A stretch of DNA of 64,000 nucleotides from Streptomyces iconiensis (GTDB taxonomy: Bacteria > Actinomycetota > Actinomycetes > Streptomycetales > Streptomycetaceae), in the NCBI RefSeq assembly GCF_028657195.3, contig NZ_JANCPR020000035.1:1-64000 (forward strand), read 5' to 3'. Below, piece after piece: positions 5,631 through 53,697 of the stretch. Position 1 is the stretch's first letter, and the number at the start of each line of letters is the position of its first letter. The position numbers were made by a program, and so were the translations under genes. The notes beneath the pieces are model-generated. The model saw only the letters and a list, made by a program, of their open reading frames with translations. It did no database searches and was not told where the DNA came from.

Positions 5631-5638
5631 CGACACCT

Positions 5639-18993: not shown

Positions 18994-19095
18994 CGGTCGG
19001 CCACATGAACCGAGCAGCCGGCCCGTCAGGACCGGGCAATCCGCCGGGCAACCCGCCGTGCGGGCCGCAGCGCCACGAGGAAGGAACACACGCGC

Positions 19096-19308
19096 ATGTT
19101 CGACGACGAAGACAACCGCGACTACACCGTGGTGATCAACGACGAGGAGCAGTACTCGATCTGGCCCACGGGGCGCGAGGTACCCGCCGGCTGGCACGAG
19201 GTGGGCGTCTCGGGTGCCAAGGACGTCTGCCTGGCCCACATCAAGGAGGTCTGGACCGACATGCGGCCCAAGAGCCTCCGCGACCAGATGAGCGCCCGGT
19301 CGGCATGA
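19096..19308 (+). CDS. mbtH: MbtH-like NRPS chaperone
   Basis: A 70-residue protein with the family's conserved residues: NDEEQYSIWP, PAGWHEVG, CLAHIKEVWTDMRPKSL. These include the tryptophans that grip the adenylation domain. MbtH proteins bind and activate A domains. As the only copy in the cluster it may serve several of the nine A domains. The ATG at 19096 follows GAGGAAGGAA, and its stop overlaps the next gene (ATGA). Confidence 0.97.
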   Translation: MFDDEDNRDYTVVINDEEQYSIWPTGREVPAGWHEVGVSGAKDVCLAHIKEVWTDMRPKSLRDQMSARSA

Positions 19309-20276: not shown

Positions 20277-20311
20277 CCCGCGAGGCGGCTTCGGCCGGAA
20301 CGGAGGAAACT

Positions 20312-28700: not shown

Positions 28701-29052
28701 GGTGCTGGGCGTGCCCGCGCTCAGCAGGCACGACGACTTCTTCGCACTCGGCGGGCACTCGCTGCTCGCCACCCAGGTCATCAGCAGGCTGCGCCGGGAG
28801 TTCGGCACGTCGGCCCGGTTGTCCCTGCTGTTCGAGCGGCCCGTGCTCGCCGACTTCGCCGCCGGCCTCGACCACGCGTCCGCACCCTCGGGACCTGCCG
28901 CACCGGCGCTGGTGCCGCGTACGGCGCTTACGGCGCATCCGGCCGATGCGACGGCCGAGCTGACGGCCGGCCTGTCGGCCGAGGAGATCACGGCGTTGCT
29001 GGGCACCACAGGCACGCCTTTCGAGGGGCGTAAGGGACGGGGGCAGGGATGA
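25708..29052 (+). CDS. NRPS, one module: C3-A3-T3
   Basis: 1114 residues. C3 carries HHTVFDG (147-153). A3 has its P-loop [11 protein letters not shown] near 622, and T3 has Ser1018 in LGGHSL. The specificity code by eye is DVEHAGVIVK, with Glu and His in the pocket, which matches nothing I know. The A10 motif is unusual: PHHKVDVAAL where NGKVDR is normal. The catalytic lysine is kept, but the preceding Gly and following Arg are lost. The gene overlaps its neighbours by ATGA at both ends, so stoichiometric translation is expected. Confidence 0.95.
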   Translation: MSDEKTGAGQSVVAAEASEEQRRLLLLEQLAGDTALYNVHFGFRWHGEVSAGLLEAALAAVVARHEVLRTTFRSLEGEPQQIIAERGTARLVRTVREGVPEEERPHEALRLAGAHARAPFDLARGPLLRAELVSFAADDHAFLLTLHHTVFDGWSAGVLFDELSELYAAGAEDRQARLEPLPLQYSDFGDWQRELLESGAWDGQSDYWARRLGEAPAAAELPADRARPAKRSFQGELVELALPAAVGSAVDAVCRSHRCTRFGVLFAAFAALLHRFTGADDLVVGTVDAGRGRPELEPLIGLFTNTLALRVPVRGTESFAELLDTVRTCVAEAQSHRDVPFARVVRRVSPARSHSHNPLFPFMFDVQPGGADRLRLPGVRSAPLRVRDRRVSLFDLSLSVETGTEGTRLVAEFATDLFDRATVTQLLGSYRTLLAALLAAPDRAVGEVPLLTPELRTALLVRHERAVGTPQVPPVTELLARRLREGGAAPAVIGADGAALSYARLDIWSAAVASALTRAGTAPGDTVALYLPRSAGAVAAILGTLRAGASYLPLDPAQPRSRTEAILAAARPAAVLAPHGALDGLDTGTAVPVALPPERGEAPSGPVPWYSAHRDALAYTLFTSGSTGTPKGVMVTRGGLDTYVAADLDVYRLTPADRVLMFTELTFDVSAEELFPALAAGAALVLRTPLMLETPADFFAECDRLGVTVTHLPTAWFHQLAAGLDDGVRPSAALRAMAIGGEAPGPAQVAQWRAAVPDMLLTNVYGPTETTIVATLATLAGGQGQPHTGDRVPLGEPLPGVSCHVLDGHLEPVPPGAVGELHIGGAGLARGYLADPARTAASFVPHPFAAGQRLYRTGDLVRRCADGGLEYRGRTDQQVKIRGYRVEPGEVEAALLAIPGVVAAVVVPHPDRTSLVAYAVPAPGAQLPAAAELSDALANTVPSYLVPSAFVELPEIPLTPHHKVDVAALPAPPARPAAAPRAAPAEGAERAVAAVWQQVLGVPALSRHDDFFALGGHSLLATQVISRLRREFGTSARLSLLFERPVLADFAAGLDHASAPSGPAAPALVPRTALTAHPADATAELTAGLSAEEITALLGTTGTPFEGRKGRGQG

Positions 29053-35000: not shown

Positions 35001-36389
35001 CAGAAGGGCCCGCCCGGCTTCGTCGACGGACTGTGGGAACTGCTCGGCGGCCTCCTGCACGGGGTACCGACCGTCGTGGCACCGCCCGAGACGGGACGCG
35101 ACCCCCGAGCACTGACCCAACTGCTCGCCGAACACCGGGTCACCAGGCTGCTGGTGGTCCCCTCGCTGCTGCGCGCGCTGCTGGAGATCCCCGGCCTCGC
35201 GGAGCTGCTCCCGCACCTGAACCGCTGGGTCAGCTCGGGCGAGGAGCTGCCCCCGCAGCTCGCGCGGCTGTTCGGCGAGCGGATGCCGGGCCGTGAGCTG
35301 CGCAATCTCTACGGTTCCTCCGAGGCGTGGGACGCGCTGTGCCAGCCCAACGGCGCCGGAACCGAACCCGGAACGGGAACCGAACCCGATGCCGGACCGG
35401 TCACAGGACCCGGTGCCGGCCGCCCGGTCCCGGTCGGCGTGCCCGTCAGCAATGTGCGGGCCCATGTGCTCGACAAGGAGCTGCGCCTCGTACCTGCCGG
35501 GGTGACCGGCGATCTCCACGTGGCGGGCGCGTGCCTGGCCCGTGGCTATCTGGGCAGGCCGGACCTGACCGCCGAGCGGTTCGTGCCCGATCCCTTCGGC
35601 GCGGCGGGCGGCAGGCTCTACCGCTCAGGGGACCGCGCGGTACGCAGGGCGGACGGCCAGATCGAGCTGGCGGGCAGGGCCGACCTCCAGCTGAAGATCC
35701 GCGGCATGCGGGTCGAACCCGCCGAGGCGGAACGGGCGTTGGAGGACCTGCCCGGTGTCCGGCACGCCGTTGTCACCGGCCGTACCAGGCCGGGGACGGG
35801 CGACCAGGGCCTGGAACTGGTGGCGTACGTCGTGCCGGAGGCCGGGGGCACGGTGGAGGTGCAGGATCTGCGCGCCGCACTGGCCCGCGTCCTGCCCCGG
35901 CACCTGGTGCCCGCGGTCTACACCGTGCTCGGCGAACTGCCGCTCAACACCAGCGGCAAGGTCGACCGCGCCGCACTGCCCGAGCCGGAACCTCAGGACC
36001 GTACGGAAACGAGGGCGGCGGCGGACAGCGGCGAGCAGACGACGGATCAGGAGCGGGCGGTGTCGGCGCTGTGGGCGGAACTGCTCGGCGTGCAGACCGT
36101 CGGCCCGCACGAGGACTTCTTCGACCTCGGGGGCCACAGCCTGCTGGCCATGCGGCTCGTGGACGGTATCGCCGAGTCGTTCGGCGTCCGTTGGGGCGTA
36201 CGCACGGTGTTCGAGCACCCCACCGTGCACCTCCAGAGCCGGCTTCTGCATGCGTCCGAAGGCCCGTCGCCGAACGGCCTTCCACAGGGCGGCCCCACGC
36301 GAGACGGCCTTCCACAGGGCGGCTCCACGCAAGACGGCCCTCCACAGGGCGCTCCTGCCCGGGCTGACGACCCGGCACAGGAGACGTGA
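29049..36389 (+). CDS. NRPS, two modules: C4-A4-T4-C5-A5-T5
   Basis: 2446 residues. C4 (HHIVFDG at 223), A4 (P-loop near 732), T4 (Ser1125), C5 (HHIVFDG at 1318), A5 (P-loop near 1946), T5 (Ser2364). By-eye codes: A4 DVLWIGGIFK, close to valine (DALWIGGTFK); A5 VDWLVSLDAK. A5 lacks the Asp that binds the alpha-amino group (VDG in place of the usual FD-x-S alignment) and shares V-D-W...S-L with beta-alanine domains (VDWVISLADK from memory). With panD nearby, beta-alanine is the best call. C4 and C5 are strikingly alike, suggesting duplication. Three in-frame repeat arrays occur: in C4, before the A3 motif of A5, and at the C-terminus. Confidence 0.95.
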   Translation: MTRTHGAAPEGEAEPLAGRRELLAKRLAAGGTRICPVSAAQRRLWFEDQLRPGRTDYTVVWPLRLTGRLDVQALRAALTALVARHEVLRTRFVGVDGEPVQVVDPPATFDCHLTDLSAAPGHAPDPAHGPAHGQAAGPVLGLPPATREAPVLDEAPVLDEGPVLDEGPVLDEGRARDEATDARVRERVAAAGARPFDLASGPLFAAEVLREDARRHVLVLAAHHIVFDGWSWAVLLSDLSALYEDFSAGGEGDVLKPLPVQYGDYAVWERELLSGETLTDHLGFWREHLSGAPETLDLPTDLDPGPAGRSGAGARRAVSVPAGAAGRLAALCAEEGATTFMGVLAATGVVLGRYGGVEDVVLSTLAANRSQPELEDLIGFFVNPLPLRVDLSGSPTFRELLARCRATALGAFAHQDLPFDRLIEELAPRRTPGVTPYAQVALVMQNGPEEPATLGGLGAESLHTEARTATFDLSLQVWPAADGGLDGFVEYATDLFAEPTALRFAGHVRSVLEQLAAEPDRPMGEFALPTGDELATALAQARPAPAPGESVPARERATPACLHELVAAQAARIPDAPAVRCGDETLTYAELDRAAEAVATRLRAEGVGTEDLVGVCVQRSLWSVTALLGVLKAGAAYLPLEPDNPADRLAYVIADSGARTVLVETDLRDELPAGGFRTVLLEEALRTPVVPVAQVTPADPAASATSPALAAPPAPVAHRAEVSPDNLAYVIYTSGSTGLPKGVAVTHRAAVTRVHEPRFVSLTEQDVMLHALALSFDVSVLEVFGALTNGCQLAVLPGKAMPERVGAFLPAYGVTVGWLTAALFHAVVDTAGEGLAGMRTLIAGGDQLSTHHVERALALLDPSALLVNGYGPTEAAIFASTHPMRASGGAQGRVPIGAPIPDTELFVMDAQFQPAPVGVPGELFIGGDCLARGYLGRPGLTAERFLPHPLGGRGARLYRTGDLVRRRADGLLEFLGRTDHQVKVRGFRVELGEIEQVLRGHPAVGEAVVVARPDERAEQTLVAYAEPLAGLTPHTGELLEHCRGALPGYMVPARIVVLDALPLNPNGKVDRAALPEADGARPDLNTGYVAPRGPLEETVAGVWREVLDLDRVGAHDDFFDLGGHSLLASRLLARVRRTFDRDLPLAVFFAGPTVAALAAALESRLSDGTQTSRPAPRAGARPDPLPASLGQRRLWFAHQLDPDSVDYTIVWPLRLSGALDTTALRSALDGVTARHEVLRTRFGSVAGEPVQLIDDPGEGLDCALTDLSGLPRGERAAVVGERIAAAGAHRFDLAADRLLRAELLRVSEREHVLVLCVHHIVFDGWSASVLLRDLAALYEAELAAPYGGELSGLYEGELSALYDGEVALPHEGEGEGVGPDGDADGGEDAAGGVGAGGRDGGGGLPPLAVQYGDYAVWERDWLSGPVLEGQLDHWRAQLAGAPESTRLPTDLGPPEQGGRSGAGARHDVALPGATGAALSAFCARIGATPFMGLLAALGVVLGRYGETEDVVVGTYAANRNRPELEELVGFFVNTLPLRIDLSGDPGFRELVTRCRAVALGAFAHQDVPFDRLVEELAPRRGAAGATPYVRVALVMQNVPDEKVSLGGVEVESLPSDTTSATFDLALHVWPNPRVGTGRDREGGNGAGGEGTRGAGTRGAGAGAEDGGFAGFVEYATDLFTREAAARFTGHVRQVLEQALAEPDRPVREHTLLTPPEAHALTAGADGGTERFPGERFPDERFPEESIAARFLRQAGRTPAAAAYLVEGTTLSYAELARDSAELAARLRLSGVGPETPVGVCLPRGRLLPVAALGIWRAGGAYLPLDPESPPSRIAHLATDSGARLTLTDTAHEHLLPPGAPRLVLDAAPDGTTEYGTTEYGTTEYGTTGGTTEYRATDRATEYRATDRATVGASAAGAMAASGTGAAAYDDHAAPGSGVDALAAVIYTSGSTGLPKGVALTARSVLNRIDWMASAWPLSADEVMCQKGPPGFVDGLWELLGGLLHGVPTVVAPPETGRDPRALTQLLAEHRVTRLLVVPSLLRALLEIPGLAELLPHLNRWVSSGEELPPQLARLFGERMPGRELRNLYGSSEAWDALCQPNGAGTEPGTGTEPDAGPVTGPGAGRPVPVGVPVSNVRAHVLDKELRLVPAGVTGDLHVAGACLARGYLGRPDLTAERFVPDPFGAAGGRLYRSGDRAVRRADGQIELAGRADLQLKIRGMRVEPAEAERALEDLPGVRHAVVTGRTRPGTGDQGLELVAYVVPEAGGTVEVQDLRAALARVLPRHLVPAVYTVLGELPLNTSGKVDRAALPEPEPQDRTETRAAADSGEQTTDQERAVSALWAELLGVQTVGPHEDFFDLGGHSLLAMRLVDGIAESFGVRWGVRTVFEHPTVHLQSRLLHASEGPSPNGLPQGGPTRDGLPQGGSTQDGPPQGAPARADDPAQET
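29490..29579 (+). repeat. In-frame 18-bp repeat (EAPVLD/EGPVLD) in C4
   Basis: Five units of GAGGSSCCGGTCCTGGAC type encode repeats of Glu-Ala/Gly-Pro-Val-Leu-Asp in a loop of the first C domain, about 130 bp before its HHIVFDG motif. The equivalent loop in C5 lacks it. Confidence 0.92.
34656..34778 (+). repeat. In-frame 15/27-bp repeats (GTTEY units) before A3 motif of A5
   Basis: Three exact copies of GGGACGACGGAGTAC, a broken fourth and fifth, then two copies of a 27-bp derivative encode Gly-Thr-Thr-Glu-Tyr and Arg-Ala-Thr-Asp/Glu repeats. They sit about 100 bp before the P-loop of the beta-alanine-like A domain. Confidence 0.92.
36271..36360 (+). repeat. In-frame 30-bp repeat at the C-terminus of the NRPS
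   Basis: Three 30-bp units encode a Gly/Pro/Gln-rich tail (NGLPQGGPTR, DGLPQGGSTQ, DGPPQGAPAR) after the last carrier domain. This is where a docking element for the next synthetase would be expected. Confidence 0.92.
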
Positions 36390-36453: not shown

Positions 36454-37230
36454 ATGGCGGCTTCGACGAACCCTTGGACAGCCCGGCTGCGTCCGGCGAG
36501 CGACACACGGCTGCGGCTGATCTGCTTCGCGCACGCCGGCGGCGGCGCCGCGACCTTCCGGGGCTTCGCGCAGCACCTTCCCGACGACATCGACCTGTGT
36601 GCCATCCGTCTCCCGGGCAGGGAAAGCAGGCTGCGGGAGCCCCCGGTGCGCAAGATGGGCGAACTCGTCGGCCTGCTCGGCGAGGCGCTGGAGGACCTGT
36701 TCGACGTGCCCTTCGGTCTCTTCGGCTACTGCTCAGGCGCGCTGACGGCGTTCGAACTGGCCAGGTACCTGCGCGAGAACGGCGGCCCGCAGCCCGCGGC
36801 GCTGTTCGCGTGCGCCTGCCCTTCGCCCGCCATGGTGCTGCGCGACAGCGGCGTCCACGAGCTTTCCAAGGACGAGCTGACCGAACACCTCGCGGCGCTC
36901 GGCATCATTCCTGACACCATCCTCCGCACACCCGGGCTCCTCGACATGTTCGAACCGAGCGTGCGCGCCGACTACGAGGTGTACGAGACCCACGAGTACG
37001 TGCCGGACGAGCCGCTCGACATCCCCGTCAGCGTGTACGGCGCGACCGCCGACCCCAGCACGACGGAGCCGACCCTGCTGGGCTGGCGCGAGGAGACGAC
37101 CCGGACCTTCTCCATGCGGCTCTTCCCCGGTGACCACGGCTTCTTCGAGGACGACAGGGCAGCCCTCGCCGCCGGTGTGAGCACCGAGCTGCGTACGGCC
37201 GCCGCACAGACCCAGGTGGCGGCCAGATGA
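36454..37230 (+). CDS. Type II thioesterase with a cysteine nucleophile
   Basis: A 258-residue thioesterase of the stand-alone editing type (LICFAHAGGGAATFRGFAQHLP, then LPGRESRLREPP). These enzymes remove stalled or wrong acyl groups from carrier proteins. The nucleophile elbow, normally G-H-S-M-G, reads LFGYCSGALTAFEL, so Cys93 takes the place of serine. The His is kept (GDHGFFEDD) and an Asp is available (YGATADPST). AGGAGG precedes the ATG at 36454. It sits inside the NRPS operon and its stop overlaps the next NRPS start (ATGA). Cys-type thioesterases are known to make strained rings or amides in a few NRPS systems, so a role beyond editing is possible. Confidence 0.93.
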   Translation: MAASTNPWTARLRPASDTRLRLICFAHAGGGAATFRGFAQHLPDDIDLCAIRLPGRESRLREPPVRKMGELVGLLGEALEDLFDVPFGLFGYCSGALTAFELARYLRENGGPQPAALFACACPSPAMVLRDSGVHELSKDELTEHLAALGIIPDTILRTPGLLDMFEPSVRADYEVYETHEYVPDEPLDIPVSVYGATADPSTTEPTLLGWREETTRTFSMRLFPGDHGFFEDDRAALAAGVSTELRTAAAQTQVAAR

Positions 37231-40200
37231 CCGAACGCGAACTGTCCGAAGTCAAGCGCGAACTGCTCGCCAAGCTGCTCGCGGGCGGCGCCGCACCGAC
37301 GGCGCGGCGGGTGACCCAGGCCGAGCCCGGCAGGCGGGTACGGCTCTCCTACGCGCAGGAAAGGGTGTGGCTCACCTCCCAGCTCGCTCCAGACGTACCG
37401 GTCTTCCACCTGGTGGTGCTCGCGGTGCTGCCGGTGCGGCTGGAGGCCGGGCTGATGGAGGAGAGCCTGCGCGCCCTCGTGGCCCGGCACGACTCGCTGC
37501 GGATGACGGCCGAGGTGGAGGACGGCGTCCCGCTGATGGCGGTGCACGACCCCGCGGACATCGCGGTGCGTGTGCCCGTCACCGACCTGTCGGCCGAGCC
37601 CGACCCCCGCGCTGCGGCCGTCGAGCACGCCGGACGGGCAGCACGCGAGCCCTACCGGCTGGACCAGGCGCCGCTGTGGCGCGCAGAGATCATATGGCTC
37701 GGGCCCGACTCCTCCATGCTGATGTTCGCCGTCCACCACCTGATCGCGGACGCCGGCTCGCTCGACCTGATCGCCATGGAACTCTCGGGGGTCGGACAGG
37801 ACACTGAACTGCCCGTCTCCTACAGGGACTTCGCCGCCTGGCAGCGCGACGGCATCGAGTCGGGCAGCCTGACCGAGGAGCTGGCCTTCTGGCGCAGCGA
37901 GCTGGCCGGGGTGCCGACCTCACTGGAGCTGCCGGCCGACAGGGCCAGGCCCGCGCTGCCCGATCTGTCGGGCCGTACGCTCCAGTTCGACATCCCCGCC
38001 GCGACCACCGCGCGGGTCCGGGCGCTGAGCAAGGCCGAGGCCGTCACCCCGTACGTCGTGCATCTCGCCGCGCTCGGCGTCCTGCTGGGCAGGTACACGC
38101 ACCGCGCGGACGTTCTGGTGGGCACCTATGTGTCGGGGCGGAGCGAGCCAGAACTCCAGCAGCTCGTCGGCATGTTCGTGAACCTGGTTCCGATACGTGT
38201 CCGGATGGCGGGCGAGCCCACCTTCCGTGAGCTGGCCGACCGGGTGCGCGGGGCGACCGCGGGAGCGTTCGCGCACCAGACCGTGCCCTTCGAACAGCTC
38301 GTCCGGCAGGCCGAGCGCGGCCCCAGCAGGGGGGAGCCGCCGCTGGTGCAGGTCGGCTTCAACATGCTGCGGCTCAAGGGCGCGGCGTTCGGCGAGGCGA
38401 TCGACCTGCCCATCTCGCAGGACGTTTCCCAGCTCGACCTGACCGTGCATGTGGTGGAGCGCGCCGACGGCTCGCACAATCTGATGCTGGAGTACGCGAC
38501 CGCGCTGTTCGACAAGGAGACGGTCGAGCAGCTGGCCCGGCACTACCTCAGCCTGCTCGACCGGCTCACCGACGACCCCGATCTCCCGCTCGCCAGGACG
38601 GAAACGCTCACCGACGCCGAAAGCGCCGCCCTCACCTCCCTCGCCGACATCGCCGACCTCACCGAGCACCGGGACAGCTCGCGGGGAGCGGGAGCGGGGA
38701 CGGAAGCGGGGGCCGGCTCGGTCGGCGAACAGCCGCTGCTCGCCGACGCGTTCGCCGAGCAGGCGCGGCTGCGTCCGGACGCGGTGGCCGTACGCGCAGG
38801 CGAGGAGGCGCTGACCTACCGCCAACTCGACGCGCGTACCGCACGCCTCGCCGACCAGTTGCGCGCACGCGGCGCGGGGCCCGAGGCCGTGGTCGGTGTC
38901 TGCCTGGAGCGCGGCCTGCCGCTGGTGATCGGCCTGCTCGCGGTCTGGCGGGCAGGCGCTGCCTACCTGCCCCTCGACCCCGAACACCCGCCCGCACGCT
39001 GGTCCACCATGCTGACGGCGGCCACCGCACTGCTGGTGCTCACCGACTCCGACCACGAGGCCGGTATCGCGGCGCTGCCGTCCGCCGTACCCCTCGTACT
39101 GGACGCGGCAGGCGACCTCCGGGCTGCCCCCGCGCCCCCGGCCGACCCCGCGCCCGCGACGGCCCCCGTACAAGCGACGGACTCCGCGCAAGCGACGGCC
39201 GCCGTGCACGCGACGGACTACGCGCCCGCGAAGGATTCCGCGCACACGCCCGACGACGCGCCGCGCGGACAGCACCGGGACGGCGTCGCCTACGTGGTGT
39301 TCACCTCGGGTTCCACGGGGGCGCCCAAGGGCGTGGTCGTCAGCAACGCCGGTATCGCCAACCGCGTGTGGTGGACCGTACGCACGCATGGCATCGGCCA
39401 CGGGGACAGGGTGCTCCAGAAGACCAGGACCGGCTTCGACGCCGCGTGCTGGGAGATCTTCGCCCCGCTCGCCGTCGGCGGTACCGTCGTGATGGCCCCG
39501 CCGGGCGCCGAACGTGACCCGGCGGCGCTGCTGCGGGCCGCCGCCGAGACGGACGCCACGGTGCTCCAGGTCGTACCCTCCGTGCTGCGGCTGCTCGTCG
39601 AGGAGCCGGGCTGGGAGCGGTGCTCCTCCCTGCGGCTGCTCTTCTCCGCCGGCGAACCGCTCGACGCGGCGCTGTGCCGGCGGGTGCGCGAGCTGGCCGA
39701 CATCGAGGTGTGGAACACCTACGGACCCACCGAGTGCTCCATCGACGTCACCGCGCACCCCTACGACGCCCGGCAGCACGCCGGTACCGTGCCCATCGGC
39801 GTGCCGATCGACCACACGCGGATCACCCTCGTCGGCCCCCAGGGCCACCTCGTCCCCGACTCCGTGCCCGGCGAACTGCTGGTCGGCGGCCCTGGGGTGG
39901 CCAGGGGGTACGCGGGCAGGCCGGACCTGACGGCCGAGCGCTTCGTGCCCGACCCGTACGGCCCGCCGGGCGCCCGCGCCTACCGCACCGGCGACCTGGT
40001 GACCCGGGGCCGCGACGGCGTACTGCGCTTCGCGGGCAGGGCCGACGACCAGGTCAAGGTCAACGGCGTGCGGATCGAGCCGGCCGAGGTCGCGGCCTCG
40101 CTGCTGCACCACCCCGAGGTCACGGCGGCACACGTACTGGCGGCGCCGGGGCACACGGGCGAACGGCGGCTGGTCGCCTACGCCGTGCCCGCGCCCGGGT

Positions 40201-43200
40201 GCACGCCCGAGCCGGGTGCGCTGCGTTCGTGGCTCGCCACCCGGCTGCCCGCCACGATGCTGCCAGCCGTCGTCGTACCGCTGGCCGCGCTGCCCCTCAC
40301 CGAGAACGGCAAGGTCGACAGGACGGCGCTGCCCCCGGCCGAGGCGGCGGCCCCCGCGGCTGCCGCGCGTCCGGCCCCGCGCACCCCGGACGAACGGCTG
40401 GTCGCCGAGGTCTGGTCCGAGCTGCTCGGTGTCGAACAGCCGGGCGCCGAGGACGACTTCTTCGCACTCGGCGGCCACTCGCTGCTGCTCGCGCGGCTCG
40501 CCGCACGGCTCGGCGAACGCGCCGGAGTCCCGGTCGCCGTCCACAGCCTCTTCGGCTCGCTGCGGCTGTGCGACCAGGCCGCGCTGCTCGCGCCCGGCGG
40601 CCCGCGCACCGACGCGCCGCCGCCGGTCCCGGCCGTGCCCAGGCCGGCACCCGGCGAGCCCGGCCTGCCGCTCTCCTCGGGGCAGCGCAGGCTGTGGTTC
40701 CTCGACCAGCTCACCCCGCACAGCCCCGAGTACGTGCTGCCCGTGCCCGTACCGCTCACCGGGAGCGCCGAACTGGCCGCGCTGCGGGGCGCTTTGGCCG
40801 ACCTGGCGGCCCGGCACGAGATCCTGCGCACCCGCTACGTACGGCATGAGGGCGAGCCCCGCCAGCTGATCGACCCGCCTCCGCGTGAGGGGGAGTGCGA
40901 GGTGGTCGACGGCCCGCTGGAGACCGTGGTCGCCGTGCTCGGAGAGCGGATACGGGACGGCTTCGCGCTCGCCGAAGGCCCCTCGTGGCGTGCCGTGCTG
41001 CTGCGCGGCACGCAGGAGCCGGGCGCGGGGGACGTACTCGTGCTGCTGCTGCACCACATCGCGGCCGACGGCCTCTCGGTGCCTGTCCTCGGCCGTGACC
41101 TGCTGGAGCTGTACCGTGCCCGCACCGAGGGCGGACCGGCGCGGCTGCCCCAACTGGCGGCCCAGTACGCGGACTTCGCCGCATGGCAGCACTCCTGGCT
41201 GTCCGGCGAACGCGTCGAGAGCGAACTGGCCTTCTGGCGTGACCGGCTGGCCGGAGCGCCCTACCTGGCGCTGCCGACCGACCACCCGCGCCCGCCGGTA
41301 CGGGACGCGGCGGGGGCCGTCGTCGGCTTCCGTGTACCCGCCGAGGTGGCGGCGCCCGTCGTCGCAGCGGGACGACGGCGCGGAGCCAGCGAGTTCATGT
41401 CGCTGCTGGCGCCCTTCACCGTGCTGCTCGGCAGGTACTGCCGCCTGCACGACGTCACCGTAGGAGTCCCCGTCGCCGGCCGGGCCAGACCCGAACTGGA
41501 CGACCTCGTCGGCTTCTTCGTCAACACGCTGGTGCTGCGCACCGACCTGTCCGGCGGCCCCACCACCGGGGAACTCCTGGACCGGGTGCGTACGAGCGCG
41601 CTGGACGCCTTCGCCCACCAGTACCTGCCCTTCGAGCGCCTCGTGGAGGAGTTGAGCCCCGAACGCGACCTCTCGCGCACGCCCCTGGTCTCCGTGCTGT
41701 TCGACGTGACCGACTCCGCCGGGTCCGCGGGGGACCCGGGCGCAGCCGCGCTCGACGAACGGTTCGCGGAGCTGTGGCAGGCGGCGAAGTTCGACCAGAC
41801 TTGGACGCTGCGCGCCGAGCCCGACGGCTCGTACACGGGCACCGTCGAGTACGCGACCGCGCTGTTCGACGCCGAGACGGTGCGGGAGATGACGGGCCAC
41901 TTCGTGCAGGTGCTGCGCGGAGCCGCCGACCCGGAGCTGCCCGTCGCCGCGCTCGACCTGATGCCCGGGACACGGCGCGAGGCGACCAGGGCCGACGGGC
42001 CGCGGCAGGCCCCGGCGCCCCTGCTGCCCGACCGGATCGCCGCACACGCGGCCACGGCGCCCGGAGCCCTGGCGGTGACCGGCACCGCGCCCGGGGACCA
42101 GGACCTCGGCTACCGCGAACTGCTGGACCGTTCGCACCAGTTGGCCCATCACCTCCGCGCGCGCGGCATCGGCGAGGGCGACGTGCTCGGCGTCGCGCTG
42201 CCCCGTGGCACCGAACTGCTGGTGAGCCTGCTCGCCGCATGGCACGCGGGTGCCGCCTTCCTGCCGCTCGACCTCACCCACCCGGCAGCGCGCCTGGCCG
42301 CACAGTGCGCCGACGCGCGCGCCGTCGCCGTGCTCACCGACGGCACACTCCCGGAGGCCGTCCCGCACGCGGCGCGCGTCGGGACAGGCCGGCCCGACCT
42401 GACCACGGTCGACCTGGTCGCTGAGGCGGCAGCCGTCGCCTCCAGGCCCACCACCCCGCCACCCGTGCGCCGCACGGCAGCCGACGCCGCCTACGTGATG
42501 TTCACGTCCGGCTCCACCGGACGCCCCAAGGGCGTGGTGGTCGAACATGGCGCCCTCGCCAACCGGGTCGCCTGGTCGGTGGCGGGACAGGGCCTCGGCC
42601 CCACCGACCGTCTCCTGCACAAGACGAGGCCGGGGTTCGACGCCTCCCTGCTCGAACTGTTCGCGCCGCTCGCCTGCGGCGGCACCGTCGTCATGGCGCC
42701 ACAGGGCGCCGAGCAGGACCCCGGGGCCCTGCTGCGCGCCGTGGCCGACGGAGCGGCGACCGTACTGCAACTCGTCCCTTCCGTCCTGCGGATGCTGCTC
42801 GACGTTCCGGTGTGGCCCGCGCTGCCCGCACTGCGGCAGGTGTGGCTGGCGGGCGAGCCGCTGACCGCCGAACTGGTCGCCGCGCTGCGGGAACGCATCG
42901 GAGCCCAGGCGCGGGAACGCACCGATGACCGGGCGCGGGAACGCCCCGACGACCAGGCGCGGGAACGCACCGACGTGCAGGTGTGGAACACCTACGGGCC
43001 CACCGAGTGCGCCGTCGACGTCACAGCGCACCCCGTCGGCACGGCCCCGCGCACCGGCCCGCTGCCGATCGGCACGGCGCTGCCCGGCGTCCGGCTGCGT
43101 GTGCTGGACCAGGCGGGCTGCCCGGCACCGGCCGGAGTGCCCGGCGAACTGTTCGTGGGCGGCGGAGCGCCCGCACGCGGATACGCGGACAGGCCCGATC

Positions 43201-44072
43201 TGACGGCCGAGCGGTTCGTTCCCGACCCCTATGGCCCGCCCGGCACCCGGCTCTACCGCACGGGCGACCTCGTACGCCTCGGCACCGGAGGGACGCTGGA
43301 GTTCGCGGGGCGTGTGGACGGCCAGGTGAAGATCAACGGCGTACGGATCGAGCCGGGCGAGGTCGGCGCAGCGCTGGCGGCACACGCCTCGGTCCGCGAA
43401 GCGGTGGTCGTCGCACGTGAGGTGGGCTCGGGTGGCCGCAGTCTGGTCGCCTACTACCTGCCGGAGGGCGCCGCACCCGAACCCGCCGAGCTGACCCGCC
43501 ACTGCCGGGGGCTCCTGCCCCAGACACTGGTGCCCGGCGCCTTCGTACCGCTCGGCTCCTTCCCGCTGACCGGCAGCGGAAAGCTGGACCGCGCCGCGCT
43601 GCCCGACCCGGCGGCGGAGCCCGGGGCGGGCGAGGACGGGCCGAGCGGCCCGCTGGAGGAACTGGTCGCGAAGCTCTGCCGCGAGCTGCTGGACCTGCCC
43701 GAGATCGGCGCGCACACCAGCTTCTTCGCGCTGGGCGGCAATTCGCTGCTGGCCATCCGGCTGATCAGCGCGCTGCAACGGGAGTTCGACGTGGAGCTTC
43801 CCGTGCGCGTCGTCTTCGAGGGTCCGACCGTGGGCGAGCTGGCCACCGCCGTGGAGTCCGCCATCCGTGCCGAGGTCGAGGCACTGTCCGACGACGAACT
43901 GGCCGCCGAGGCAACGCTGCTGGCGGCCGAGCCCGCCGGCGAGGAGCCCGGCACGGGCACGGCCCCGTATCCGACGAGCACCGCGTATCCGAACAGCACC
44001 GCGTATCCGAACAGCACCGCGTATCCGAACAGCACCGCGTATCCGCACAACAGCGAGGAGCGAGCGACGTGA
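37227..44072 (+). CDS. NRPS, two modules: C6-A6-T6-C7-A7-T7
   Basis: 2281 residues. C6 (HHLIADA at 170; the usual final Gly is Ala), A6 (P-loop [11 protein letters not shown] near 692), T6 (Ser1085), C7 (HHIAADG at 1276), A7 (P-loop near 1759), T7 (Ser2173 in LGGNSL). By-eye codes: A6 DAWQFATIDK and A7 DALQWATVDK. Both resemble a glutamine code I recall (DAWQFGLIDK) and each other, so the two modules probably take the same or related residues. Because the cluster has a carbamoyltransferase, a ureido amino acid shaped like Gln (ureidoalanine from Dap, or citrulline) is a good alternative. In-frame repeats lie before the A3 motif of A6, inside A7, and at the extreme C-terminus. Confidence 0.95.
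39156..39245 (+). repeat. In-frame 18-bp degenerate repeat before A3 motif of A6
   Basis: Five 18-bp units beginning GCGACGG or GCGAAGG encode Ala-Thr/Lys-Asp-Ser/Tyr-Ala-Gln/Pro-like repeats. They end about 50 bp before the P-loop ([12 protein letters not shown]). Confidence 0.85.
42906..42977 (+). repeat. In-frame 24-bp repeat (QARERTDD) in A7
   Basis: Three 24-bp units encode Gln/Arg-Ala-Arg-Glu-Arg-Thr/Pro-Asp-Asp, a charged helix-like insertion just before the A5 motif (WNTYGPTEC). A6 lacks it. Confidence 0.92.
43965..44054 (+). repeat. In-frame 18-bp repeat (AYPNST) at NRPS C-terminus
   Basis: Five units, three of them identical (GCGTATCCGAACAGCACC), encode Ala-Tyr-Pro-Asn-Ser-Thr repeats in the last 35 residues. 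The stop codon and the GTG of the next synthetase follow within 20 bases. Confidence 0.95.
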
Positions 44073-47000
44073 CGGGGAATCAGGGAGCGCGGGAAGCGGC
44101 CGAACTCAGGGCCGAGGTCCTCGCCAAGCGACTGGCCGGGCGCCGGAGCGGCAGCAACCGCCGCCGCGGCGCGATCCCGCCCGCCGACCGGCAGGGCCCG
44201 CTGCCGCTGTCCTTCGGCCAGCAGCGGCTGTGGTTCCTCGACCGGCTCACGCCGGGCAGCCCCGAGTACCTGGTGCCGTGGGCGGCCCGGCTGCGCGGCG
44301 GCCTGCGCGCCGCCGAACTGCGCGCCGCCTGGGGCGATGTCGTCGCGGCCCACGAGATCCTGCGCACCCGCTACGCCCTGTCGGGCAAGGAGCCCGTACA
44401 GGTCGTCGGCGCCGCCACCGAGACCGACTTCGCCGTCGTCGACCTTGGTGACAGGCCCGAGGGCGAGCGCGAGAAGCTCGCCCTGGAGTACGCCGACGAG
44501 CAGGCCCGCACACCCTTCCGACTCGACGCCGACCTGCCGGCCCGGCTGCGGCTCGTACGCCTCTCCGACGGCGATCACCTGCTGGTGCTCGTGCTGCACC
44601 ACATCGCCTGCGACGGCTGGTCGCTCAACCTGATCGCTGAGCAGCTCTTCGCCGCCTACCAGCGGCGCTGCGACCCCGAGAGCGCCGAGGGCACGGCTGT
44701 GCCGGCCGCCGGGGTGCAGTACGCGGACTACGCCGCCTGGCAGCGGGCCCGGCTCTCAGGCACCGAGCTGGAGCGGCAGCTCGGCCACTGGCGCGCCGAA
44801 CTGGCCGGACTCGGCACCGCCGACCTGCCGGCCGACCGGCAGCGCCCGCAGATCAGGGACGCCAACGGCGCCACCCTCTGGTTCACGCTCCCCGCCGAAC
44901 TGGGTGAGCGCGTCAGGCTCCTGGCCAGGGAGCGGGAGACCACGGTTTTCACCGTGCTGCTCACCGCCTTCCAGGTGCTCCTCTCCCGGTACACGGGCCA
45001 ACGGGACATCGCGGTGGGCACCCCCGTCGCGGGGCGCGAGCGGCCCGAACTGGCCGGGCTCGTTGGCTTCCTCATCAACACGGTGGTACTGCGCGGCCGT
45101 TGGGAGGGCGACCCCTCCTTCCTCGACCTGCTCGCCTCGGCACGCGGCACCGTCGAGCGGGCACTCGCGCACCAGGACGTGCCGTTCGAGCAGCTCGTCG
45201 AGGAGCTGGCGCCCGAGCGCGACCTGGCCCGCACCCCGCTGTTCACGGTCATGTTCGGCCTCCAGGACGGTGTCGGGGGCGGCGGTACTCAGCTGCCGGG
45301 GCTGACCGTCGACCGGGTCGAGGTGGACTGGACCGTCGCGAAGTTCGACGTGAACCTCCAGCTCGCCCAGCTTTCCGACGGCAGCGTGACCGGCTTCCTC
45401 GAATACGCCACCGCGCTGTTCGACGAAACCACCATGGACCGCTTCGCGCAGCGGTACCGCAGGCTGCTGGAACACCTCGTGACGGCGCCCGAACGCCCCG
45501 TATCGCACGCCGACCCGCTGTCCCCGGGCGAGCGCCGGCAGCTGCTCGGCGACTGGGCGGGCGGCGCCTCGCCCGACGCCGTGCTCGACGAGGACCCCGC
45601 GCTCGGCTCCGCCGTCGGCATGCACCAGGCGTTCGAGGCGCACGCGGCTGCTGCCCCGGACGCCGTCGCCGTCACGGCCGAGGACGCCACGCTGACCTAC
45701 GGCGAGTTGAACGTCCGGGCCAACCGGCTCGCCCACGTGCTGCGCGCACGCGGCGTCGGACCCGACAGCCTGGTGGGCGTCTGCCTGGAGCGCGGCGCCG
45801 ACCTCGTGGTGAGCCTGCTCGCCGTGGTCAAGGCGGGCGGCGCCTACGTACCGCTCGACCCCGCCTACCCCGCGGCGCGGCTGGGGCACATCCTGCAGGA
45901 GACAGGGCTGCGCCTGGTCGTCACCCGGGACGCGCACACCGGCCTGTTCGCCGAGCTGCACGACGACATCCACGCCGACCTGCACGCCGACATCCACGGC
46001 GACCGGCACGGCGCCGGACTGGTCTGCCTGGAGTCGGACGCCGCGCTGGTCACGGCGCCCACGACGAACCCAGTGCCGGTCTCAGGGCGGGACCACCTCA
46101 TGTACGTCATCCACACCTCCGGTTCCACCGGCAGGCCCAAGGGCGTCTGCATGACCCACCGCAACGTGCTGCGGCTGTTCGCTTCGGCCCGCGAGCACTA
46201 CGACTTCGGCCCCGAGGACGTCTGGCCGCTGTTCCACTCCTACGCGTTCGACGTCTCGGTCTGGGAGCTGTGGGGAGCGCTCGGACACGGCGGAACGCTC
46301 GTCGTGCCGTCCTTCGAAGTGACCCGCTCGCCCGAGGAGTTCCTCGACCTGCTCGTGCGGGAGCGTGTCACGGTGCTCAACCAGACCCCGTCCGCCTTCC
46401 GCACGCTGCTGGCAGCGCTCGCCGCTACGGGGCAGGACGACCCGCGCCCCGCCGCCCTGCGGCTGCGCAAGGTGATCTTCGCGGGGGAGCGGCTCGAACC
46501 CGCCGAACTCCTGCCCTGGCACGCCGTCTTCGGCGAAACAGGCCCCGACCTGATCAACATGTACGGCATCACCGAGACCACCGTGCACACCACCCACCAC
46601 CACATACGGCCGGCCGAACTGGCGCCCGGCGCCCCCAGCCTCGTCGGGCGTGGCCTGTCGGACCTGCGGGTCTATGTGCTCGACCGGGACTGCGCCCCGG
46701 CGCCGACCGGCGTCGTCGGCGAACTCCACGTCGGCGGCCCCGGGCTGGCGCGCGGCTACCTCGGCAGGCCCGATCTCACGGCGGAACGCTTCGTTCCCGA
46801 CCCCAACGGTCCGCCGGGCGCCCGGATGTACCGCAGCGGCGACCTGGCGCGCTGGCGCGAGGACGGCGTGCTCGAATCCGCAGGCAGGGCCGACAAGCAG
46901 GTCAAGATCCGCGGATTCCGGATCGAGCCCGGCGAGATCGAGGCGTCCCTCGCCGAACATCCCGCCGTACGCACGGCCGTTGTCCTGCCCAGAACGGGGC

Positions 47001-50000
47001 ACGACGGAACGGCGCACCTCGTGGCCTACCTGGTGCCCGCGCGGGAAGCGCCCGCGCAGACCGTGCCCGCCCAGACGGCGCCCGCGCAGGAGGCGTCCAC
47101 CCAGGCAGCGTCCGCCCAGAAGCCCCCCGGGCTCGACCGTGCGGAGATCAGGACATGGCTGGCGGCACGGCTGCCGAGCCACCTCGTCCCCGCCTCCTAC
47201 ATGGAGATCCCCGAGGTCCCGCTGACGGCGAACGGCAAGCTCGACCAGGCGGCGCTGCCAGAGCCTGACTCCACCGCCGTGGCAGCGCACAGCCGCTATG
47301 AGGCCGCGCGCACGGCGGGGGAGCAGCGGGTGGCCGCGGTATGGCGTGACGTTCTGCGCAGCGAACGCGTCGGCGTGCACGACAACTTCTTCGAGCTGGG
47401 CGGCGACTCGCTGCGCGCCGTCGCCGTGGTGGGCGCCCTGCGTGCCGAGGGCCTCGACGTCTCCGTACGCGACCTGTTCGAGCACCGTACGGTCGCAGGG
47501 CTGGCCGAGCTGCTGTCGGGACGTACGGGTACGGCCGAACCGCTGCCGCGCGTCGAGCCGTTCTCGCTGGTCTCCCCGGCGGACTCGGCCCGGCTCCCGG
47601 CGGGGCTTGAGGACGCCTACCCGATGTCGCAGGTCCAGGTGGGCATGGTCATCGAGATGCTCGCCGGTGAGCTGCGCAACTACCACAACATCACCTCGTT
47701 CAGCATCCGTGACGGGGAGCCGTTCGAAGCGGAAGCCATGCGTGCCGCAGCGGCCGAACTCATCCGCAGGCACGAGATCCTGCGCACCTCGCTGCACCCC
47801 ACCGAGTTCTCCGAGCCGCTGCAGCTGGTGCACCCCTCGGCCACCCTGCCGCTGACCGTCACCGACCTGTGCCGGCTGCCGTCCGAGGAGCGGGAACGGC
47901 GGGTGCGCGCCTACATCGCCGAGGAGCGCGAGAAAGTCTTCGACCTGTCGCTGGCACCCCTGCTGCGGCTGGGTGTGCATCTGCACGAGGACGGATGGCG
48001 GCTGTCGATCACCGAGTGCCACGCCATCCTGGAGGGCTGGAGCTACCACTCGCTGCTGATGGAGCTGCTGCACCTCTACCGTGCCCTGCGCGACGGCGCC
48101 CCGCTCCCCGAGCCCGGCACCGTCTCCACCCGCTACGCCGACTTCGTCGCCCTCGAACAGCGCACGGCGCGCTCGCCCGAGCACCAGGACTACTGGCAGG
48201 GCGTGCTCGACGAGCACGCGCGGCTGCGCGTCCCGGAGACCTGGGCCGCGCCCGCCGAGCCGGCGCCCGAAGGGGAGGAGCAGCGTGCGCCCGTCCCGTA
48301 CCAGGTGTGGGTACCGGTCGCCGACCTCTACGACCCGCTGCGCGCCCTCGCCGCGCATGCCGGGGTGTCCCTCAAGAGCGTGCTGCACGCGGCGCATCTG
48401 AAGGTGATGAGCACGCTCACCGAGGAACGGTTCTTCTACTCCGGCCTCGTCTGCGACACCCGCCCCGAAGTGCCGGGCGCCGACCGGTTGTTCGGCATGT
48501 TCCTGAACACCGTGCCGTTCCCCTTCCAGCTCACGGCGGCGACCTGGCGCGAGCTGGTCTCGGACGTCTACGCCCGCGAGTCCGAGGTGTGGAGCCACCG
48601 CAGGTACCCGCTGTCCGCGATGAAGCGCGCCCAGGGTCAGGGCGGCAGCCGCCTGATCGACGTGTTCTTCAACTACCTCGACTTCCACATGGTCGACACC
48701 GAACTGGTCGACTTCGGCGACAGCATCGACGAGAGTCCCAACGAGTTCCCGCTCGCGGTCACCTCGCTCGGCGGCCACATGATCCTGACCACGAGCACCG
48801 ATGTCCTCGACCGCCCGCACGCCGAACGGCTGGCCGCCTCCTACCGGCGCGTCCTGGAGACGATGGCGGCCGACCCGGACGGAGACTGCCGCCTCGGCCA
48901 CCTCGAACCGGGCGAGGAGGCGCGGCTCCTGGCCGCGTACGACAACACGGCGCCCGCCACACCCGCCGGGTCCCTCGACGCTGCTCCGGGGGCTCCCGCC
49001 GTCTCCGCCGTGCGGCCCGCTCTGCCCGCGACGCTCGTACAGCGCGTCAGCGAGCACGCGCGCCGGGCACCCGAGCGGCCCGCCGTGACGGACGCCGGGG
49101 GCACGCTGCTCAGCTACCGCGAACTGGACGAGCGAGCCGCGCTGCTCGCCCACCGGCTGCGCGCCCGTGGCGTCGGCACCGACGTGCGGGTCGGCATCCT
49201 GCTGGCCCACAGCCCCCAACTGCTCGTCGCGCTCCTCGCCGTGCTCAAGGCGGGCGGCGCCTACGTCCCCATGGACCCCGAACACCCCTCCATGCGCTGG
49301 GACTTCGTCCTCGCCGACAGCGGCGCCTCGCTGATCCTCACCGACGAGGTCCGCGCGGCCGAACTGGGCCCCGGGCACGCCGGGCGCACCGTCCTCATGG
49401 ACACCGCTGAGCCGGAGGCCGCCGAAGGGGCCACCGGCGGTCTGCCGCAGGCCGCGCGGGACTCGCTCGCCTACACGATCTACACCTCGGGCTCAACGGG
49501 CACTCCCAAGGGCGTGATGGTCACCCACCGGGGCCTGGCGAACTACGTCGACTGGGCCGTACGGCGCTACCGCGTGACGGAGGGCGGCACCGTGCCGCTG
49601 CTCGGTTCGGTCGCCTTCGACCTGTCGGTGACCAACCTGCTGGTCCCGCTCGCCGGCGGTGCGACGGTGCGGCTGCTGCCCACCGAACGGCCCGTCGACG
49701 CGCTGGCCGGGCTGCTGCGCGACGGGACAGCCTTCGACCTGATCAAGATCACCCCGGCTCACCTGGAAGTGCTCAAGGCGCACCTCGCGGGCGAGGGTCC
49801 GATCGACACCGTCGGCACGTTCGTGGTGGGCGGCGAGGAACTGCGCGCGGACAGCGTGCGCTCCTGGCGCCGTCTGACGCCGGACGCCACCGTCGTCAAC
49901 GAGTACGGCCCCACCGAGACCGTGGTCGGCTGCGTCGTGGCCGACGCGGGAACGCCGGCGCCCGATGCCGTACGGGTACCGATCGGCAGGCCCATCGCCG

Positions 50001-52006
50001 GCACCCGCGTCCACGTTCTCGACCGGTTCGGCAACCCGGTAGCGCCCGGTGTGGTCGGCGAGCTGTACCTGGGGGGTGCCGGGCTCGCGCGCGGCTATCT
50101 CGGGCGGCCCGACCTCACAGCCGAACGCTTCGTCCCCGACCCGTTCACCGCGGCGGGCGACAGGCTGTACCGCACGGGCGACCTCGTCAGGGCCCTGCCC
50201 GACGGCGAGTTGGAGTACCTCGGCCGCGCCGACAGCCAGCTCAAGATCGCTGGTTACCGTATCGAGCCCGGCGAGGTGGAGGCCGCGCTGTGCGCACACC
50301 CCGGTGTCGCCGAGGCCGTGGTCGTCGCCGGCGAGCACACACCAGGTGACCGCGTGCTGGCCGCCTATGTCGTCGCGGTCGAGGGCGCCGAGCAGCCGGG
50401 CCCCGCCGAACTGCGCGGCTTCCTCGCGGGGAGGCTGCCCGTCCACCTCGTGCCGGGCGCCGTGCTGCTGCTCGACGCGCTGCCCGTCACCCAGGGCGGG
50501 AAGATCGACCACAGGCGGCTGCCCGCACCCCGGTCCAGGAGCGCGCTGAGCGCGCCGTTCGACCGCACCCGCAACACGGTCGAGGCACGCCTCGCCGACA
50601 TCTGGGTCAAGGTGTTCGGCCTGGACAGGGTGGGCAGGGACGACAACTTCTACGAACTGGGCGGGGACTCCATGGCCAGCCTGCGCGTCGTGGTCGAGGC
50701 CGCGGCACGCGGTATCGACCTGGAGCTGCGCGATGTGCTGGCCCACCCCACGGTCGCCGAACTGGCCAACAGGCTCAGGGGCGGAGAGCTGGCCAACGTG
50801 CTGGACAGCGTGCGCGCCGACGCCGTGCTCGACCCCGCGTACGCGCCCGCAGGACCCCGCCCCGCGCCCGCCGGACCCCGCCCGGCTGACGGTGCCGAAG
50901 CGCCCGTCCTGCTGACCGGCGCGACCGGTTTCGTCGGTACGTTCCTGCTGCGCGAACTGCTGGACCGTACGACGGGCCCGGTGCGCTGCCTCGTGCGCTG
51001 CGACGACGCGGCACAGGGAAAGCGGCGGCTCCTGGACGCGATGCGGGCTCTGGATGTGCCGACGGCCGACGTCGAGCGCAGGGTCGAGGTGGTGCCCGGC
51101 GATCTGGCGGCCCCCGAATTCGGCCTGGGAGCCGAGGGGTTCGCCGCGCTCGGCGACGGGCTCGCGGCGATCTACCACAACGGCGCCCAGGTCAACGCCG
51201 TGTACCCGTACCCGGCGCTGCGGGCAGCCAACGTGCTCGGCACCCGCAGGCTGCTCGACCTGGCCGCCGCGGGCAACACCCCGCTGCACCACATCTCGAC
51301 CATGTCCGTGTTCTCGCCGCTCCAGGCCGAGAGCGGCCCGGTCACCGAGGACACAGCGACCGACCACCTGGACGGCATCCCCGACGGGTACTCCCAGAGC
51401 AAGTGGGCAGCCGAGGCGCTCGTACGGGAGGCTGCGGCGCGCGGGCTCCCGGCCAGTGTCTACAGGCTCGGGAACATCTCCTGGCACACCCGTACCGGCG
51501 CTGCCAACCCCGACGACGTCATCTGCCAGGCACTCGCCGCCTGCGCCCGCCTCGGCGCCGTCCCGATCGCCGACCTGGAACTCGACCTGGCCCCTGTGGA
51601 CTTCGCCGTGGCCGCGATCGTCGAGCTGTCCCGGCAGGAGGGCGTCGAGGGCGAGCTGTTCCACATCGTCAGCGGCAGGCCGAGTCCCTGGAAGGACACG
51701 GCGGAGTGGCTCGCCGACCACACGGGCAGGCCGGTCGAGTCGCTGCCGTACCTCACCTGGCGTGCCCGGCTGCTCGAAGCGGCCGAACTGCCCGGCGGCA
51801 GCGAACTGAAGCGGCTGCTGCCGCTGTTCCCGAACATGGACTACGACCCCGACCTGCCCCTGATGCAGCGCGACCACAGGGCACCCCGCACCGAAAGGCG
51901 GCTGGCCGCCGCGCGGCTGCGCTGCCCCGAGGTCGGCAAGGAGGAGGTGGCCCGCTTCCTCGACCGCAGGCGCGACCTGAAGCCCCTCGGCACGACAGCC
52001 ACCTGA
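44069..52006 (+). CDS. NRPS, two modules with terminal reductase: C8-A8-T8-C9-A9-T9-R
   Basis: 2645 residues from a GTG overlapping the previous stop (GTGA). C8 (HHIACDG at 177), A8 (P-loop [11 protein letters not shown] near 682), T8 (Ser1114), C9 (motif CHAILEG at 1317, where HHxxxDG is expected), A9 (P-loop near 1805), T9 (Ser2201), then a thioester reductase: GATGFVG near 2285 and catalytic Tyr2441 in YSQSKWAAE. By-eye codes: A8 DVWNIAMVHK, near threonine (DFWNIGMVHK); A9 DLTKVGEVGK, near asparagine (DLTKLGEVGK). There is no thioesterase, so release is by NADPH reduction to an aldehyde, which may cyclise to an imine or be reduced to the alcohol. C9 may be a modifying rather than ordinary condensation domain. 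Confidence 0.96.
45964..46011 (+). repeat. In-frame 12-bp repeat (DIHA) in A8
   Basis: Four 12-bp units (GACATCCACGCC type) encode Asp-Ile/Leu-His-Ala/Gly in a loop upstream of the A3 motif of A8, the same region as the repeats in A2, A5 and A6. Confidence 0.88.
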
Positions 52007-52142: not shown

Positions 52143-53084
52143 ATGTGGCAACGGCGCCGGCACCTGCTGTCGATCGCGGACCTGACGGACGCGGAACTGC
52201 ACCACCTGGTCGAGGCGGCGAGCGGCCATGCCGCCGCGGCGGCCGAGGGGACCGCCCCCGCCTCCCCGCTGCGCGGACTGGTGGTGGGGACGTACTTCCG
52301 TAAGACGTCCACCCGCACCCGCACGGCCTTCTCGGCCGCCGCGCTGCGCCTGGGTGCCCAGGTCATCGCCTTCGGGCCCGCCGACCTCCAGGAGAACACC
52401 GGGGAGAGCGTGGAGGACACGGGCCGCGTGCTCTCGCGCATGCTCGACGGCCTGGTCGTCCGCACCTCGGGACCCGACAAGGAGATCGCCGCCTACGCGG
52501 CGCAGGAGCGGATGTCGGTCGTCAACGCGATGAGCGAGGGCGAGCACCCCACCCAGGCGCTGGCCGACCTCACCACCGTCCACCGCGTGCGCGGCCGGAT
52601 CGACGGCGCACGCGTGCTGTACGTCGGCGAGGGCAACAACTCCGCCGTGGCGCTCGCCCTCGCGCTCACCCGCTTCCCGGGGACCGAACTGCACGTGGTG
52701 ACCCCGCCCGGCTACGGCCTCCCCGAGGCGACACAGCGGGCGGCGCAGAAGTACGCCGCCGCCTCCGGCAGCACGTTCACCCACGGGCACGACCTCGCCG
52801 CTGCCCCGGAGAACACCGACTTCGTCTACACGACCCGCTGGCAGACCACCGGCACCACCAAGCCCGACCCTGACTGGCGCACCGTCTTCGAACCGTTCCG
52901 CGTCGACGAGGCCCTCATGGCCCGCCACCCCGCCGCCGCCTTCCTCCACGACCTCCCCGCACACCGGGGCGAGGAGGTGTCGGCCGCCGTGCTGGACGGC
53001 CCGGCCGGCATCGCCTTCGACCAGGCCGAGAACAAGATGCACAGCGCCGCAGCCGTCCTGGAGTGGTGCCTCACCGGGGGCTGA
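52143..53084 (+). CDS. Ornithine carbamoyltransferase homologue with altered amino-acid site
   Basis: 313 residues from the ATG at 52143 (GGAG six bases upstream; an in-frame TTG at 52131 is rejected). The carbamoyl-phosphate site is intact: STRTR at 56-60 and HPTQ at 135-138. The amino-acid site is not that of ornithine enzymes: the HCLP motif is HDLP (Asp270 replaces Cys), and the SMG loop region reads TRWQTTG (231-237). A cluster-specific transferase acting on a different amine is likely. As SbnA and SbnB make Dap, the best guess is carbamoylation of Dap to beta-ureidoalanine, a reaction known in zwittermicin- and guadinomine-type pathways. Citrulline formation, or carbamoylation of the finished peptide, are alternatives. 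It is the last gene of the main operon. Confidence 0.88.
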   Translation: MWQRRRHLLSIADLTDAELHHLVEAASGHAAAAAEGTAPASPLRGLVVGTYFRKTSTRTRTAFSAAALRLGAQVIAFGPADLQENTGESVEDTGRVLSRMLDGLVVRTSGPDKEIAAYAAQERMSVVNAMSEGEHPTQALADLTTVHRVRGRIDGARVLYVGEGNNSAVALALALTRFPGTELHVVTPPGYGLPEATQRAAQKYAAASGSTFTHGHDLAAAPENTDFVYTTRWQTTGTTKPDPDWRTVFEPFRVDEALMARHPAAAFLHDLPAHRGEEVSAAVLDGPAGIAFDQAENKMHSAAAVLEWCLTGG

Positions 53085-53654: not shown

Positions 53655-53697
53655 CGCGCAATTATGCACCTCGGATACGCGGGTAGCGCGAGATTTT

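Follow-up and report, generated by a model that had tools for sequence, protein, structure and literature searches.

A probable L-2,3-diaminopropionate transcarbamylase encoded beside the NRPS genes of a Streptomyces iconiensis cluster

Results and Discussion

The carbamoyltransferase gene directly downstream of a series of non-ribosomal peptide synthetase (NRPS) genes in Streptomyces iconiensis probably encodes an L-2,3-diaminopropionate transcarbamylase (DPTCase), an identification to which we assign a probability of roughly 85%. The window considered here is the whole 64-kb stretch of DNA. A sequence-only reading of the gene had suggested a transferase for diaminopropionate (Dap) or another short diamino acid, giving beta-ureidoalanine, and this proposal is supported by the motifs of the protein, its position in the tree, the presence of CmnB- and CmnK-like genes, and a conserved syntenic cluster. 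The enzymatic function is not itself novel, because both it and its motif signature have been published: the part of a 2015 review available to us (PMC4581275) ascribes the combination of (T/S)RWQTTG and HDLP to the DPTCase of viomycin and zwittermicin, which makes beta-ureidoalanine, and that of TRWQSMG and HDLP to the diaminobutyrate (Dab) enzyme (DBTCase) of padanamide. In the accessible text of another paper (PMC9586298), beta-ureidoalanine is a feature rarely used beyond zwittermicin biosynthesis. The interest of the cluster beyond a known kind of enzyme lies in an uncharacterised and probably reductively released peptide, and in a possible split of the family between Dap and Dab. We found no description of this cluster in the literature, judged by titles and the openings of abstracts. 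Its principal features are as follows.

1898..2971, + strand: SbnB/CmnK-like dehydrogenase (OCD family), Dap-pathway gene (Pfam PF02423; PDB)
5507..6010, + strand: PanD-type aspartate decarboxylase, beta-alanine supply (PF02261, E 3.8e-50)
6051..7094, - strand: SbnA/CmnB-like PLP enzyme, Dap-pathway gene (PF00291; own-genome match C54:6216-7037)
13030..18891, + strand: single-module type I polyketide synthase (PKS; 81%, syntenic)
19005..20276, + strand: luciferase-like monooxygenase (84%, syntenic)
20273..25711, + strand: NRPS, A-T-C-A-T
25708..29052, + strand: NRPS, C-A-T
29049..36389, + strand: NRPS, two C-A-T modules, second A domain with code VDWV..
36454..37230, + strand: stand-alone thioesterase
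37227..44072, + strand: NRPS, two C-A-T modules
44069..52006, + strand: NRPS, C-A-T-C-A-T-R, last A domain DLTK...NEYGPTE, terminal thioester reductase; directly 5' of the transferase
52143..53084, + strand: carbamoyltransferase, DPTCase-type, 313 aa plus stop (motifs, fold, tree)

Motifs and predicted fold of the transferase

Translation of the transferase gene gives a protein in which the two carbamoyl-phosphate motifs, SxRT and HPxQ, are present as STRTR at residue 56 and HPTQ at residue 135. Both published features of DPTCase are there as well: a TRWQTTG loop at residues 231-237, and HDLP, beginning at residue 269, in place of HCLP, which puts Asp at position 270. The DxxxSMG and HCLP features of ornithine transcarbamylase (OTCase, ArgF) are absent, while DxWxSMG and HCLP occur in all 15 primary OTCs compared, and the loop does not match the TRWQSMG of DBTCase. 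We took the ATG at 52143 as the start codon; an in-frame TTG lies 12 bases 5' of it, from which the reading frame would run from 52131. Chance can be dismissed as the source of this motif set, because STRTR, HPTQ and HDLP are found in every one of the best 80 named relatives.

Thus the carbamoyl-phosphate residues are intact, the Cys of HCLP is replaced by Asp270 and the SMG loop is replaced, all as the sequence-only reading had it. Its further statement that this Cys recognises ornithine was too strong, since the known structures, as the available part of the review relates (PMC4581275), show HxLP side chains without direct contact to the substrate. In models from the same source the alpha-amino group lies close to the HDLP Asp, and the carboxyl group close to the Arg of the loop; these residues are numbered D250 and R212 for the Saccharothrix mutabilis protein. 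The source also notes that R229 and Q231 in the R-x-Q motif of aspartate transcarbamylase anchor the beta-carboxyl group of aspartate. In a pairwise alignment Arg232 and Gln234 of the window enzyme fall opposite the R-x-Q of the aspartate-type enzyme of its own genome (L002), which agrees with a short substrate whose carboxylate is close to the amine. We suggest that Arg232, with Gln234, holds the carboxylate and that Asp270 holds the alpha-amino group.

The NCBIfam models place the protein among ornithine and aspartate transcarbamylases, yet it scores under the curated cut-off of all 16 models matched, including the OTC models NF001986 (253.3 against 306) and TIGR00658 (247.8 against 280.85) and the putrescine transcarbamylase model TIGR04384 (186.7 against 500). 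In sequence, the solved structures closest to it are those of OTCs. An AlphaFold model built from 22 aligned sequences (mean pLDDT 91.7) has a predicted transcarbamylase fold, with OTC 1a1s as the best PDB match followed by putrescine transcarbamylase, and from these best matches we judge the predicted fold to be the unknotted one of the OTC branch.

Relatives and phylogeny

From 395 stretches, 344 were confirmed as relatives of the transferase; the best 80 of these 344 were examined, together with rows from 61 genomes near that of the window. The loop among the best 80 reads TRWQTTG in 76, TRWETTG in three and TRWNTTG in one. The tree of 113 rows was built by a quick method with SH-aLRT support only, and carried long-branch warnings for its outgroup rows. 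The 15 primary OTCs lie on one side of a branch with support of 95, across a long outgroup branch, and the window enzyme lies on the other; clustering inside the primary OTCs had been named beforehand as one outcome that would overturn the proposal, and the transferase falls outside their clade. It groups with L005 and L036 (support 100) and next, weakly, with L017 (82).

These results bear on whether the cluster has simply taken on an ornithine transcarbamylase as a source of citrulline for the NRPS. ArgF shares with the window enzyme the superfamily branch, the fold, the carbamoyl-phosphate site and 31-41% identity among the rows listed, but the window enzyme lacks DxxxSMG and HCLP, scores under the OTC cut-offs and belongs to a separate clade, and an OTC with HCLP and SMG is encoded separately in this genome (L001). 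We regard recruitment of this kind as exceedingly improbable.

An NRPS-like match was found in 76 of the 80 relative loci within the stretches examined, 75 of them with at least 300 aligned residues; the four loci without such a match (L021, L031, L032 and L064) include some short stretches. Plasmid-borne copies at E <= 1e-40 are all from Streptomyces, and 21 of the 28 close ones are annotated just 'ornithine carbamoyltransferase'. Taken together, the NRPS association and this labelling imply that ureido amino acids may be much commoner in actinomycete peptides than has been noted.

Some members of the family merit separate mention. Among the best 80 are a Bacillota entry, from Marininema (L008), and two from Bacteroidota, namely Chryseolinea and a Cytophagales bin (L023 and L032). 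The transferases of these three, 57-63% identical, form a group of their own (support 91), suggestive of transfer between phyla. Four rows (L096, L097, L099 and L100) form a separate group (support 99) with SRWQTMG and HDLPAVRG as against TRWQTTG and HDLPAHRG, and perhaps represent a further substrate class. At L045 an 809-aa reading frame lies just 3' of the transferase (11012-13438), in a neighbourhood cluster that spans 14 of the 80 loci; it has no NCBIfam match, and we take it to resemble lantibiotic dehydratases.

Dap genes and conservation of the cluster

The window contains candidate genes for both steps of Dap synthesis. The best PDB relative of the SbnB/CmnK-like protein is CmnK (7cxs, E 1.5e-52), followed by 4m54, and that of the SbnA/CmnB-like protein is CmnB (8if7, E 5e-73), followed by SbnA; the capreomycin Dap enzymes are thus the best solved relatives of both. 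The transferase had been described as standing beside a Dap pathway. The pathway genes are indeed in the window, but at the opposite end of the cluster, 45-49 kb from the transferase. With the DPTCases of viomycin, capreomycin and zwittermicin A the system shares the carbamoyl-phosphate motifs, (T/S)RWQTTG, HDLP, and linked SbnA/SbnB-type Dap genes and NRPS, a likeness set by motifs as the available part of the review describes them (PMC4581275) rather than by aligned DPTCase sequences; it differs in having a PKS, nine A domains, PanD and a terminal reductase.

Linkage over such a distance is conserved elsewhere. In Streptomyces aureoverticillatus the transferase (L005, 79% identical) and an SbnA homologue (82%) lie on one contig, 43.5 kb apart, compared with 45.0 kb in the window. 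By tblastn, the genes around this SbnA homologue keep the window order and include the CmnK-like gene (82%), PanD (78%), the PKS (81%) and the monooxygenase (84%), as well as two ABC genes, a kinase, a regulator, hydrolases, an MFS gene and part of the first NRPS protein (69%). Both S. aureoverticillatus and S. aurantiacus JA 4570 have a 74% identical NRPS adjoining the transferase. S. aureoverticillatus keeps the Dap genes, the transferase and parts of the NRPS, all at 69-84% identity where compared. More broadly, an SbnA homologue at 57% identity or more was present in eight of 49 genomes searched, a set without L057, one match being partial. It shares a contig with the transferase in four of the eight (L005, L017, L052 and L076); in the others (L007, L036, L054 and L059) the contig with SbnA differs in length from that of the transferase, and the transferase is not at the expected place there. 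The best SbnA match for the remaining 30 loci is 51%, in the genome of L050.

Close neighbourhoods are less telling for the wider family. Both SbnA- and SbnB-like matches occur within about 10 kb of the transferase in eight of the 80 relatives, SbnA alone in five and SbnB alone in two, but these matches are 28-40% identical, except for the SbnA homologue of L017 at 56%, and because ordinary cysteine synthases also match at 28-40%, the count by itself is weak evidence for Dap.

PanD raises the question of whether the transferase carbamoylates beta-alanine, giving N-carbamoyl-beta-alanine. The gene is kept in the syntenic cluster, and the R-x-Q loop of the transferase resembles the carboxylate anchor of aspartate transcarbamylase. 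Yet beta-alanine would leave Asp270 with no amino group to bind, and PanD lies within about 10 kb of the transferase in only one of the 80 named loci (L017), being farther away in L005. Moreover, the VDWV.. code of the second A domain in the NRPS at 29049..36389 resembles that for beta-alanine, and loading by this domain would be a more direct use of PanD. We attach hardly any probability to beta-alanine as the substrate.

Directly after the transferase, at 53199-56411, an AsnC-type regulator is divergent from asparaginase and aspartase genes. Membership of these three genes in the cluster is not supported by the relatives: across the 80 loci neither the asparaginase nor the aspartase has a relative and AsnC has a single weak match (L047), and in L005 and L036, two loci that have the NRPS and transferase in common with the window, none of the three lies near the transferase. 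Because the asparaginase and aspartase are not shared, the cluster probably ends at the transferase.

A Dab-linked clade and the loop as a discriminator

The assignment raises the question of how Dap enzymes are to be told from Dab enzymes. The review, in its available part, calls it unclear whether the TTG/SMG loop difference separates DPTCase from DBTCase (PMC4581275), and the accessible text of another paper assigns the Dap and Dab loop motifs in the opposite sense (PMC6022934). We scored a Dab aminotransferase at 45% identity or more to a reference diaminobutyrate-2-oxoglutarate transaminase, that of L020 (569 bits, cut-off 438). Such a gene adjoins the transferase in 20 of the 80 loci, just upstream on the same strand in 17 and on the opposite strand in three. 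A single 27-row clade (support 99, SH-aLRT, quick tree) contains all 20 loci, which perhaps reflect one evolutionary event rather than 20; Fisher values computed on such counts take no account of relatedness. Their substrate, judged from gene neighbours, would be Dab. The clade is not purely Dab-linked, because SbnA- or SbnB-like matches also occur in it, in six of the 20 loci and, without a Dab aminotransferase, in four more rows.

All 20 of these loci have HDLP, and their loop is TRWQTTG in 19 and TRWETTG in one. TTG versus SMG is thus not supported as a discriminator, and the published loop alone does not prove Dap. Two other positions, in window numbering, follow the clade more closely: position 303 is Arg in 27/27 of its rows and in 0/53 others, and position 299 is Tyr in 25/27, as against Met or Leu in 50/53 others. 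These residues might separate Dap from Dab enzymes, but since the Dab-linked loci form a single clade they are candidate positions and not proven determinants. If the clade does use Dab, the loop as published cannot serve to tell the two substrates apart, and residues 299 and 303 can be tested directly for that purpose.

For the window enzyme itself, the signature is compatible with a diaminobutyrate transcarbamylase, as in padanamide, making 2-amino-4-ureidobutyrate; it shares HDLP and TRWQ with the padanamide enzyme, and HDLP and mostly TRWQTTG with the close relatives of the Dab-linked clade. However, it lies outside that clade and has Met299 and Ala303, its loop is TTG where the published Dab enzyme has SMG (PMC4581275, available part), and the 64-kb window has Dap genes and no EctB-type match. 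Neighbourhood and tree position therefore favour Dap over Dab, which we consider very unlikely here.

Adenylation domains and chain release

A-domain codes were read by regular expressions, which gave none for 12 of the 80 loci and are unreliable at code positions 299 and 301. Of the nine A domains in the window, the last lies, with its A3 core at about 49484, in the C-A-T-R module just 5' of the transferase and has a DLTK..EVG code with NEYGPTE. The DLTK type resembles the Asn code, and this domain may for that reason be an Asn domain. Under the stricter of two rules, and among loci with a readable A domain, 27 of the 46 non-Dab ones and three of the 22 in the Dab clade have a DLTK-type domain, leaving 19 of the 46 without one; the total depends on the rule (35/68 with the looser, 30/68 with the stricter). 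An FDP...W-type domain shows the reverse distribution (13/22 Dab-clade loci against 0/46). The two groups tend to pair with different A domains, a pattern that fits two different ureido amino acids.

We propose that the CmnB-like and CmnK-like enzymes make L-Dap, and that the transferase then carbamoylates the beta-amino group of L-Dap from carbamoyl phosphate, giving L-beta-ureidoalanine. This product, in free form, would next be taken up by the NRPS, with the last module as the likeliest site of loading, and the terminal reductase would release the chain; the Asn-like A domain and the reductase together suggest release of a beta-ureidoalanine aldehyde. A pairing of terminal reductase and transferase across the family was considered and rejected, a reductase like that of the window being found in two of the 80 loci, L005 and L036 (blastp E <= 1e-15, within the stretches examined).

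Alternatively, Dap might be carbamoylated after adenylation, when bound to a carrier or peptide. In favour of this, the transferase gene directly follows an NRPS gene, but the solved relatives, OTC and putrescine transcarbamylase, use free small amines, and the prevalence of the Asn-like A domain among the non-Dab loci fits loading of a finished ureido amino acid. We give this route little credence and prefer carbamoylation of free Dap.

A more speculative proposal combines the product with the family split, and we hold it only tentatively, as something rather unlikely to be right in all its parts. The PKS-NRPS peptide would end in beta-ureidoalanine and be released as an aldehyde by the terminal reductase, on which the ureido nitrogen would close to form a six-membered cyclic urea end group (5-amino-4-hydroxy-tetrahydropyrimidin-2-one). 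What divides the HDLP/TRWQ family between Dap and Dab would, on the same proposal, be not the published loop but residues such as those at 299 (Met/Leu or Tyr) and 303 (Arg in the rows of the Dab-linked clade).

A second copy in the genome

The same genome contains a second transferase, 53% identical (C59:235815-236711), adjoining SbnB-like and SbnA-like genes. The surrounding stretch (L130, C59:225000-244000) has, at about 8465-15138, a row of genes made up of this HDLP-type transferase, its SbnB-like and SbnA-like neighbours, a methyltransferase and a reading frame of 411 aa. This last has no Pfam or PDB match, and the row adjoins a PhyH dioxygenase. No NRPS was found among the ten reading frames scanned in this 19-kb stretch, but some 16 kb from the second transferase there is a condensation domain (C59:218094-219458), and given this an NRPS link is possible for this copy also.
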